In this document: in pieces, positions 3,083-6,226 of the stretch
Layout: the number at the start of each line of letters is the position of its first letter
How positions within the stretch are numbered: position 1 is the first letter of the stretch
NCBI GenBank assembly: GCA_026982375.1
Contig: JALSHF010000015.1
Location: 1-33,144 of the forward strand
Direction: 5' to 3'
DNA: 33,144 bases
Source of the DNA: Emcibacter sp.
GTDB lineage: Bacteria; Pseudomonadota; Alphaproteobacteria; Sphingomonadales; Emcibacteraceae
The notes under the pieces: generated by a model
The model's database searches: none
Told to the model about the DNA's origin: nothing
Seen by the model: only the letters and a program-made list of their open reading frames with translations
Translations under genes and position numbers: made by a program

Positions 3083-3112
3083 TTTAAAGACCCCTAAACA
3101 AAGGTGGTTTAA

Positions 3113-3240
3113 ATTGTGGTATATCAGGCTAAATCATTTCATATTTATTAATCCATACGCTGCCGCATTAAAATCGACTTACTCTGCCCCCCCCATTGAT
3201 TGTTGGACAATTCTATCAGACATTGACTAACCACCAATGA
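3113..3240 (-). pseudogene. Degenerate aldehyde dehydrogenase C-terminal relic
   Basis: Read on the minus strand, this stretch gives SRF*CGSVWINKYEMI*PDIP, which matches SRLECGSAWINKHGMIQPNVP of the intact dehydrogenase at 4823-6226. Further upstream, GG*SMSDRIVQQ aligns with GGSIWSNDIEQA, but in another frame across an 8-base G run. Over 43 bases (3127-3169 against 4923-4965) I count 33 identities. There are at least three stops and one frameshift, so it cannot be functional. It lies between the LysR gene and the AT-rich island. It looks like the remnant of a paralogue rather than a recent copy, since the DNA has diverged considerably. Confidence 0.75.
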
Positions 3241-3351
3241 TAGTACAGTATTCATGGTCACCACTGTGGGTAATCAGATATAAAGTTTTCGTTATGTCTA
3301 GAAAAAATACAAACGGGGCGTTAATAGTATTAAATTATTGGGAAAATTTAC

Positions 3352-4233
3352 ATGGGACGAGGTCGATACTATCTAGGTAGAGTATTAAAACTTGGGAATT
3401 TAAATCGCGAACGGCTCACTGAGGCAATCCAAGAACCCAAGACAATAAGTGTTGGTAAGTTCCAATGGACATTTACAGATATGCTGGACAAAACTAACGA
3501 GACAGAAGGTTATATTTTTGCTCGTTTGGCCAAATATTCACAAGAAGGTCATATGACGATTGTTGATACAGACACTAACTCTCAGAAAGATGCCGTTACT
3601 GAAAATTTACTTGTTGCGAGTTCGCCTTTTGTGTATTTACCTGAATTTTCAGGCATTGCTTATTTACATGTTTGGCATGGGATAGAAGAAAATGTTTTTC
3701 GTCGCCGGTTTAAAAATTTAATTGAAGAGGCATTTAATAAATTTTTTATCAACTGTGAAATTGAGCCTATAGCGGATTATAGGGCTTTTATATCCAAATT
3801 GCAGGCAATTGAGGAAATTTCTGAAATTCACGCCAAAGTATATCCTCCAAATCCACTTTTTGGTGATTTATGGAAGGATTTAAACGAATATATTAAATCC
3901 AGAAATGCTACAGAAGTTCAGATAGTAGAAAAAAGTACTGATGAAGATGGCTTGAGTACTGATTTAGTGAATTTGATAAATGCTATAGTTAAAAAAAATA
4001 TTGATAAAGCTGAGAGGCCTGCTTCCCTGGCTGATGCAGCTCTTCTTATGGCCGCAGATGGATATGGCACAGGTAAAGTGATTGGTGTGACAAAGGATGA
4101 GAATGTAGTTATTCGCACTGCAGATACCCAAAAAAGCTTTCTTTTTGATAAAGAACCAAAAGGCAGTAAGCTGGCAGTTGAGGCACAAAGACAATTTGCT
4201 AAGGTCTCAGCAGAGCGAGATATGAAACATTGA
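3352..4233 (+). CDS. Uncharacterised soluble protein, first gene of an AT-rich two-gene island
   Basis: I do not recognise this 293-residue protein with confidence. It has no signal peptide or membrane segment. Visible features are an N-terminal RGRYYLGRVLKLG, YIFARLAKYSQEG near residue 55, a hydrophobic segment ASSPFVYLPEFSGIAYLHVW near residue 90, a charged helical middle, and a small-residue motif AADGYGTGKVIGV near residue 235. The layout recalls the loosely defined DUF4747/DUF4868-like soluble proteins of paired defence modules, but that is from memory and weak. Codon use is AT-rich, unlike both flanks, which suggests transfer. It overlaps the next gene by four bases (TTGA), so the two are probably translated together. 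GGGA precedes the ATG by 9 bases. Confidence 0.75.
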   Translation: MGRGRYYLGRVLKLGNLNRERLTEAIQEPKTISVGKFQWTFTDMLDKTNETEGYIFARLAKYSQEGHMTIVDTDTNSQKDAVTENLLVASSPFVYLPEFSGIAYLHVWHGIEENVFRRRFKNLIEEAFNKFFINCEIEPIADYRAFISKLQAIEEISEIHAKVYPPNPLFGDLWKDLNEYIKSRNATEVQIVEKSTDEDGLSTDLVNLINAIVKKNIDKAERPASLADAALLMAADGYGTGKVIGVTKDENVVIRTADTQKSFLFDKEPKGSKLAVEAQRQFAKVSAERDMKH

Positions 4234-4700
4234 GCAGCATTTTTGACATAATCAGAAGGACAGTAATATCTCCTGAATTTTTGGTTACCATATTTGCTAT
4301 TCTGATCATCATTCTTAAGCCAAATTTTCTTTTACTTATCTCAAAAGCATTATCTGAAGCTCCTGATGGGGTGAAATATATAGCATTAGTTCCAGTAGGA
4401 ATTACATTTTGGTGTCTGAAACAGTCAAAAACAATATTATTTCCTTCAGAAGATGCACAAGGCCTGTTACAGAATTGGCCAAACTTCCGATATCTAAAAA
4501 CGCGTGTATTGATAGGAATTGTTTATCAAGGATTTTTTTGTGTGTCCGGGGTTCTTGTATGGATAACTGTACCAAAATTTGACAATTATTGGTCGGTTGT
4601 TGTTATAGGGATGGCAATTATCGGTTCTGTAGTTGGTGCTGCAACTTTTTACTTAGCCTCATTAAATGTAGCAGAGATGACAAAGCGCCATACATTATAG
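4230..4700 (+). CDS. Small multi-pass membrane protein, second gene of the island
   Basis: An unrecognised 156-residue protein that begins with TTG overlapping the stop of the preceding gene. It shows about four hydrophobic segments: FLVTIFAILIIILKP (about 18-32), ALVPVGITFWCL (about 51-62), IGIVYQGFFCVSGVLVWITV (about 95-114) and VVVIGMAIIGSVVGAATFYL (about 124-143). The loop between segments two and three is soluble (about residues 63-90). With the soluble partner upstream it forms a cytosolic-plus-membrane pair, an architecture common in two-gene anti-phage modules, but no family match can be claimed. Composition is AT-rich like its partner. Confidence 0.7.
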   Translation: MSSIFDIIRRTVISPEFLVTIFAILIIILKPNFLLLISKALSEAPDGVKYIALVPVGITFWCLKQSKTILFPSEDAQGLLQNWPNFRYLKTRVLIGIVYQGFFCVSGVLVWITVPKFDNYWSVVVIGMAIIGSVVGAATFYLASLNVAEMTKRHTL

Positions 4701-4731
4701 GCTTTGAAAAATCAATGGGGTCAGCGGAGAG

Positions 4732-4782
4732 AGAAAAAGTTAATAGCTTTACCTATCGGCCAAAGGCCGAGGTAAAGCTATT
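4732..4782 (-). terminator. Long hairpin terminator after the aldehyde dehydrogenase
   Basis: Two nested perfect stems form one hairpin: 12-base arms AATAGCTTTACC (4742-4753) and GGTAAAGCTATT (4771-4782) enclose 6-base arms TCGGCC and GGCCGA around an AAA loop, with a two-base bulge. On the minus strand it is followed by AACTTTTTC, as in an intrinsic terminator, and it lies about 40 bases past the dehydrogenase stop. It may also stop plus-strand transcription from the island. The stem is unusually long for a simple terminator. Confidence 0.7.
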
Positions 4783-4798
4783 TGAGCAGGGGTAACTC

Positions 4799-4820
4799 TT
4801 GGCCAGAACTCTATGGCCAA
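4799..4820. repeat. Short inverted repeat next to the dehydrogenase stop codon
   Basis: TTGGCC and GGCCAA flank a ten-base spacer, immediately downstream of the dehydrogenase stop on the minus strand. No T-run follows. It makes a tandem pair with the longer hairpin at 4742-4782. Confidence 0.4.
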
Positions 4821-4822
4821 AA

Positions 4823-6226
4823 TCAGGTAAAAACCGCCTGAATGGTGGTATATTCTTTTAGGCCGTCGACGCCGAATTCGACGCCGATGCCGGAGCCTTT
4901 GACGCCGCCGAAGGGGACGTTGGGCTGGATCATGCCGTGCTTGTTAATCCATGCACTGCCGCATTCAAGGCGTGAGGCCAGCGCTTTTGCCTGTTCAATG
5001 TCATTGCTCCAGATGGAGCCGCCGAGACCATTGTCGGACGCATTGGCGCGCGCGATGGCATCGTTCACGTCAGTATATTTGATGATCGGCAGGGCCGGGC
5101 CGAACTGTTCTTCATCCACAATTCTCGTGCCGTCGCTGACATCTGCCAAAATGGTCAGGGGATAAAAATATCCCGTCCCCTCTTCGGGATTAGCCCCGAG
5201 CAGAACGCGCGCGCCGCCCGCCACCGCATCCTCGACCAAATCTCTGACTTTGTTATACTGCATTTCATTTTGTACAGGCCCCATGATCATATTTTCATCA
5301 AGGCCGTTCCCCATGGGTATATTACGGGCAAATTCGGTCAGGGCCGCGCAGACATCGTCATAAACATCCGCATGGACATATAATCTTTTCAAGGCCGCGC
5401 AGGTCTGGCCACCATTAATGAAAGACCCCCAGAAAAGCCCCTCGGCAATGGCCTTGGCATCCACATCCGGCAGGACAATACCCGCATCATTGCCGCCCAG
5501 CTCCAGGGTCAGGCGCTTCAGGGTCGGGGCCGCGCTCGCCATGATTTTTTCGCCGGTGGCACATGATCCGGTGAAAATGATTTTATGAATATCCTCATGC
5601 TCGCTCATCATCTGGCCCAGATCATCCCGGCCACTGATCACATTTAAAACGCCCTTGGGCAAAATGCCGCTGATCAGTTCAATCATGCGCAACGTGCTGA
5701 GCGGGGTATAGGGGGAAGGCTTGATAACCACGGTATTGCCGGTGCGAAGAGCCGGGATCACATGCCAGATGGCAATCATCAAGGGCCAGTTCCACGGCGT
5801 GATCGAGCCAACAACACCAATAGGCTTGCGGTGTAGTTCCACGCGGCCCTCTTCATTATCCTGAATAACCTCTACGGGCAATTCCAGATCGGCTGTAAAA
5901 TGAGTCCAGGCCTGACAGCCGCCAAGTTCAAAGCGTGACCCGACACCATTCAGCGGTTTGCCCTGTTCCTGCGTCAATAATTTTGCCAGTTCCTCTGCGT
6001 TATCTTCCAAAAGTTTGCCAATGGCATGGCAGGCCGCCTTGCGATCCTCATTGCTTACCTTGCTCCACGACTTGAAAGCCTGCGCCGCGGCGGCGACAGC
6101 GGCGTCCAGTTCTTCCCGACCCGCCACCGGACATTTACCCAATAATTCACCCGTAGCCGGATTGAATATATCCATATGTGTTGCGGTTGGCACAGACGCG
6201 CCATTTATATATAAATTATATTCCAT
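4823..6226 (-). CDS. NAD(P)-dependent aldehyde dehydrogenase of the qhn operon
   Basis: A full-length ALDH superfamily enzyme of 467 residues. It has the cofactor and active-site motifs in order: TPWNWPLMIA near 145, KPSPYTPLS near 170, FTGSCATGEKI near 220, LELGGND with the general-base glutamate near 245, and the catalytic cysteine in GGQTCAALKR near 280. A frame with ATG at 6238 also exists, but GGAG sits 6 bases before the ATG at 6226, so MEYNLYING is preferred. It lies 67 bases downstream of qhnB on the same strand and is probably cotranscribed. The natural role would be to oxidise the aldehyde released by the amine dehydrogenase to a carboxylate, as FeaB does for phenylacetaldehyde. The substrate is inferred from context. 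Confidence 0.92.
   Translation of the reverse strand: MEYNLYINGASVPTATHMDIFNPATGELLGKCPVAGREELDAAVAAAAQAFKSWSKVSNEDRKAACHAIGKLLEDNAEELAKLLTQEQGKPLNGVGSRFELGGCQAWTHFTADLELPVEVIQDNEEGRVELHRKPIGVVGSITPWNWPLMIAIWHVIPALRTGNTVVIKPSPYTPLSTLRMIELISGILPKGVLNVISGRDDLGQMMSEHEDIHKIIFTGSCATGEKIMASAAPTLKRLTLELGGNDAGIVLPDVDAKAIAEGLFWGSFINGGQTCAALKRLYVHADVYDDVCAALTEFARNIPMGNGLDENMIMGPVQNEMQYNKVRDLVEDAVAGGARVLLGANPEEGTGYFYPLTILADVSDGTRIVDEEQFGPALPIIKYTDVNDAIARANASDNGLGGSIWSNDIEQAKALASRLECGSAWINKHGMIQPNVPFGGVKGSGIGVEFGVDGLKEYTTIQAVFT

Follow-up and report, generated by a model that had tools for sequence, protein, structure and literature searches.

The window, by which we mean the whole stretch of 33,144 nucleotides analysed, carries a short insert with two linked genes between a LysR and an aldehyde dehydrogenase gene. 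The features, in positions of the window, are the following.

3083..4825, no strand: insert between the convergent LysR and aldehyde dehydrogenase genes
3127..3172, no strand: degraded 46-bp repeat left of the cassette, a copy of the internal aldehyde dehydrogenase piece 4923-4968
3352..4233, plus strand: gene 1, ATG start, 293 aa; RexA-like soluble protein, remote relative of DUF4747
4230..4700, plus strand: gene 2, TTG start, 156 aa; RexB-like small membrane protein
4742..4782, no strand: long hairpin right of the cassette, about -26 kcal/mol

The sequence-only reading had described a linked two-gene module with a four-base overlap, distinct from its flanks in base composition and lying between a pseudogene relic and a long hairpin. 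The two open reading frames were found to overlap by 4 bp, and the G+C content of the cassette is 36.5%, compared with 50.2 +/- 2.9% elsewhere in the window. With the window alone as reference, none of 575 same-size sliding windows outside the cassette was as low. The hairpin on the right was found as described, and the relic on the left proved real but small: it consists of the 46-bp dehydrogenase copy, which aligned to its source with a score of 37 (maximum for shuffled sequences, 26). The hairpin lies between convergent genes and may act as a terminator; no copy of its sequence turned up at the corresponding place in those genus relatives that were inspected. A sigma-70-like promoter was looked for upstream of the pair and none was found.

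In the window's genus the genes for LysR and aldehyde dehydrogenase lie next to each other and converge (L109-L119). Their junction is empty, 9-21 bp long, in four relatives (G057, G063, G041 and G093) and measures about 80-100 bp in G096 and G113. In G105 and G069 it extends to about 720 bp and holds two genes that we read from their sequence as HigB/HigA-like; the same genes lie beside LysR in G108. In the closest relative, G072, this place is taken by a type II restriction-modification (R-M) system, whose C5 methyltransferase and MvaI/BcnI restriction enzyme have Pfam matches. The junction of G078 contains yet another protein, which the end of the contig truncates. Defence-type cargo is exchanged at this junction, and the window copy of the pair is inserted in it. 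The degraded dehydrogenase copy left of the cargo is common to the window and G072 (left flank of L109, with the R-M cargo), and is perhaps the scar of an insertion or of repeated cargo exchange.

Sampling of the order, class and phylum yielded almost no kin of gene 1. Its presence is patchy: it was found in 2 of 298 genomes of the order and in 1 of 385 of the class, the latter being the window's own genome. When 84,980 species genomes were scanned with a motif common to the window gene 1 and a distant Picosynechococcus plasmid protein, 61 relatives with 23-66% identity were obtained, from at least 13 phyla. (Two candidates, the isoprenylcysteine methyltransferase-like protein of G046 and G881, were discarded as chance matches.) A BLAST homologue of gene 2 was present at position +1 in 51 of the 61 loci. 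The linkage proposed for the window extends to the family, whose members are not lone core-genome genes. The genes overlap by 4 bp in 28 loci and by 1 bp in 18. Several further loci have downstream of gene 1 a membrane open reading frame that does not cluster with gene 2, and most loci lacking a gene 2 homologue are accounted for by contig ends or decay. Gene 1 is intact and gene 2 broken in L024 (by a frameshift) and L054 (cut by an apparent transposase), and L041 has gene 1 without gene 2. In G058, a genome of the same order (L002 / L010), gene 2 is intact with 39% identity, and of gene 1 the last ~40 residues are left; this remnant of the pair lies near HigBA-like and mobilisation genes. 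Judging from L024, L054 and G058, either half can be carried alone.

In the gene 1 tree, phyla are intermingled at well-supported nodes: the window protein groups with that of Chlorobium (100/100), and a Bacteroidota protein pairs with a Myxococcota protein (100/99). The copies of Marinobacter, Halomonas and Alcanivorax are almost identical across families. The simplest reading of this distribution is horizontal transfer. No gene 1 relatives were found in viral contigs by pattern scans, whose reach is limited by the patterns, or by tblastn in 50,697 phage records, and the plasmid search returned only a distant pair, from Picosynechococcus. The family is chromosomal. The distant pair, in Picosynechococcus sp. 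PCC 8807 (L003, 4983-6382), is located on a plasmid, inside a Dnd DNA phosphorothioation cluster.

In direct family look-ups neither protein reached the cut-off of Pfam, PADLOC, PHROGs or NCBIfam. Gene 1 gave a sub-threshold match to Pfam DUF4747 (PF15931; E 0.017, 15 bits, gathering cut-off 27 bits), and this model matched only one of the 55 gene 1 family members. When a 55-row gene 1 profile was aligned with canonical DUF4747 proteins by hhalign, the two were collinear over 180 columns (E 4.8e-5, probability 68%); the earlier suggestion to compare the pair with DUF4747 was right. Weak matches to the DUF4747 domain are on record for lambda RexA, Sbash gp30 and CarolAnn gp44 (PMC6426596, PMC6426606, PMC7542560), and through this domain gene 1 would be indirectly linked to lambda RexA. 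No match was obtained by hhalign between gene 1 and either the single lambda RexA sequence or the Butters/Toast profile. Within the order, a genuine DUF4747 gene (L012) is directly followed by a TTG-start open reading frame that looks membrane-type, and a further open reading frame adjoins an Acinetobacter plasmid DUF4747 gene (L076) directly downstream. The gene 1 alignment (55 rows including the window) contains 14 invariant columns. Among its conserved features are the invariant motif M-A-x-D-G-Y-G near the C-terminus (MAADGYG, residues 233-239) and a near-invariant final His.

An AlphaFold2 model of gene 1 was built from the 55-row alignment (pLDDT 91.7, pTM 0.88). In Foldseek the best PDB matches were the two lambda RexA chains of entry 8TWQ (prob 1.00; E 3e-6 and 1e-5), followed by RdgC (E 4e-3). 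VIA-align also placed RexA first (Z 8.5, 135 residues, 3.6 A), as the sole match with Z >= 8; CENP-N/CHL4 and IML3 came after it and RdgC lower. Most of these runners-up belong to the fold relatives named for RexA itself, since RdgC, IML3 and CHL4 are given as such in the RexA structure paper (PMC11077077). The global TM-score between the model and RexA was only 0.31, a low value that may be due to the closed conformation of the two domains in the RexA crystal (PMC11077077). Gene 1 is thus predicted to have the two-domain fold of RexA. With a pI of 5.7 (median of the family, 5.65) the protein as a whole is acidic and not obviously a DNA binder.

For gene 2, AlphaFold gave a helical model (pLDDT 93.1), and a simple hydropathy scan detected three clear transmembrane segments in the window copy and three to four in most relatives, in agreement with the soluble-plus-small-membrane-protein layout originally proposed. 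In 50 sequences residues E16 and W83 are invariant. The family keeps S-x-E near the N-terminus and has a motif, L-x-E-W-P-x-Y-W-x-L-K, which includes W83 and lies in the loop preceding the third long helix. A parallel to this conserved loop is found in Sbash gp31, where the substitutions R70A and D73A in the loop abolish defence. By hhalign, gene 2 matched neither RexB nor Butters gp31 nor the partner gene product in L012; the published membrane partner RexBpp is likewise without an HHpred match (PMC12894663). We call gene 2 RexB-like because of its position, size, topology and partner. Fold-search matches of gene 2 were generic helical bundles, NINJ1 among them, and were not interpretable.

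The layout was compared with those of known systems. The pair resembles lambda RexAB in the RexA fold, in the order of the genes (RexA, then RexB) and in having a small multi-helix membrane partner. It differs in that lambda RexAB neighbours cI in the immunity region of the prophage whereas the pair family is chromosomal, and in that the single lambda RexA and RexB sequences have no detectable similarity to the pair, gene 2 not being alignable with RexB. RexABpp (PP_5643-5644), the system of Pseudomonas putida prophage P1, was compared by its published description (PMC12894663); it shares with the pair the gene order, the four-helix membrane partner and a similar score to 8TWQ (DALI Z 8.8 for P. 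putida RexA, VIA-align Z 8.5 for gene 1), but, unlike the pair, is prophage-encoded behind a CI-like repressor. Sbash gp30/gp31 and CarolAnn gp44/gp43 likewise combine a DUF4747-type soluble protein with a four-TM partner that has a conserved central cytoplasmic loop; their soluble partner, however, is about 370 aa long and phage-borne, and the related Butters/Toast profile does not match the gene 1 family. The DUF4747 family itself (PF15931) is similar in its profile and in that its L012 and L076 members also precede an adjacent open reading frame, but the gene 1 family stays below its cut-off and has its own MAADGYG motif in the C-terminal third. RdgC matches the same fold more weakly and is a single housekeeping gene without a membrane partner.

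Only five RexAB-like systems had been described as of January 2026, all from phages or prophages (PMC12894663). Such carriage, common to all five though not strictly defining, was not found in the pair family. What sets the pair family apart from the described systems is its chromosomal location, its spread over many phyla, a DUF4747 score that stays under the cut-off and the lack of a PADLOC match. The sequence-only reading had named the pair the window's best candidate for an undescribed system. The kind of system, however, is already described, the nearest being RexAB. The pair fits RexAB by fold and layout, and on structural and genomic rather than functional evidence would also work like it.

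In other genomes the pair is often accompanied by defence genes. HsdS is encoded at -1 in six loci (L051, L052, L053, L056, L059 and L060), which form one supported clade, and in most of these HsdR is close upstream. A reverse transcriptase is found at -1 in three loci. PADLOC model matches numbered 298 in 130 near neighbours and 61 in 130 far ones; because the models are redundant, these counts show a direction and not a fold-enrichment. Other neighbours appear AbiE-like, DarTG-like, type III R-M or OLD-like to the eye, with no model matches. Many relatives sit among ordinary genes, some of them among housekeeping genes. In three Idiomarinaceae genomes (L015, L016 and L022) SIR2-like and HNH genes follow the pair at +2/+3 in fixed order, possibly forming a composite island with it. 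PrrC accompanies the type I R-M system in the EcoprrI locus and acts when a phage escapes restriction; the clade whose pair follows hsdS immediately within type I R-M operons is reminiscent of this arrangement.

Among abortive-infection systems, RexAB is the oldest known. The pair recurs in 13 or more phyla, in many cases next to known anti-phage genes, and reads as a RexAB-type defence. It is a probable anti-phage system. We consider it likely, though by a distance short of certain, that the cassette provides abortive infection of the RexAB type from the chromosome; it is probably a branch of this cell-shutdown defence that has so far escaped the catalogues. Points that speak against this reading are the sub-threshold DUF4747 score, the failure of hhalign to connect either protein with lambda RexA or RexB, the low global TM-score, the acidic charge of gene 1 and the many relatives among ordinary genes. 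What the analysis shows are the linked genes and their conserved pairing, the predicted RexA fold and the membrane nature of the partner, together with the horizontal spread, the defence neighbourhood and the insertion at an exchange site. The dimer, DNA binding, activation, pore and abortive infection are taken over from the RexAB literature. By this analogy gene 1 would form a RexA-fold dimer and bind DNA irrespective of its sequence. It would become activated on detecting phage replication (or its intermediates) or a phage protein, and would then engage gene 2, a putative four-helix protein of the inner membrane that is quiet alone. Gene 2, when triggered, would open a pore or otherwise damage the membrane, so that growth would stop and the infection be aborted. 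The gene overlap would keep both products at a fixed ratio.

The roles of the two proteins could also be inverted, gene 1 being the anti-phage effector and gene 2 tethering or restraining it at the membrane until infection. In Butters gp30 alone blocks the phage and gp31 attenuates gp30 (PMC7542560), and in our pair, too, the gene ratio is set by the overlap. However, the occurrence of gene 1 alone in L024 and L054 and of gene 2 alone in G058 suggests that neither half is strongly toxic, and the conserved loop residues of gene 2 exceed what a plain anchor needs. We regard such an inversion as unlikely. A role like that of RdgC, in which a membrane-tethered DNA-binding pair serves recombination or chromosome maintenance and is a passenger of islands, not itself an immune system, would agree with the rank of RdgC as next fold match (E 4e-3) and with the relatives found among housekeeping genes. 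It appears rather improbable, since the pair is patchy (2/298 genomes of the order, 1/385 of the class) yet present in 13 phyla, and is swapped with R-M and toxin-antitoxin genes at one site. That the two genes overlap and are carried on mobile islands, and that relatives have HigBA-like pairs at the junction, might also suggest a toxin-antitoxin or selfish addiction pair acting without a phage trigger. The half-pairs carried alone in some genomes argue against a simple toxin-antitoxin pair, and gene 1, with nearly 300 aa and a DNA-binding-type fold, is unlike the usual antitoxins; this explanation is quite improbable. The Kiwa-like membrane sensor complex first thought of on account of the soluble protein with its small multi-pass membrane partner can be practically dismissed, as the gene order of Kiwa is reversed relative to the pair, none of 55 gene 1 and 50 gene 2 members matched a Kiwa model or, convincingly, any other PADLOC model, and the fold matches of gene 1 are kin of RexA, which makes RexAB nearer; the absence of KwaA and KwaB among the fold matches listed proves nothing.

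A wider form of the RexAB-type reading, which we put forward tentatively and with some doubt, is that the pair represents the main chromosomal branch of RexAB, horizontally transferred over at least 13 phyla, that the prophage RexAB systems are its offshoots, and that the hsdS-linked clade may serve as a back-up of restriction. A compact family would make the sensing of infection by RexA, and its activation, testable. The present family, of about 300 + 155 aa, can be aligned in dozens of culturable species, such as those of Halomonas, Marinobacter, Idiomarina and Dyella; the invariant residues in both proteins would open it to mutational analysis and escape genetics. The libraries of Pfam and PADLOC that were used recognise no member of the family.

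In a fold search of BFVD four uncharacterised phage proteins (A0A8S5S8L2, A0A8S5MSR5, A0A8S5QGP5 and A0A8S5PCY0) outscored RexA as matches to the gene 1 model, with E values of 1e-11 to 1e-13. These may be undescribed phage RexA proteins.
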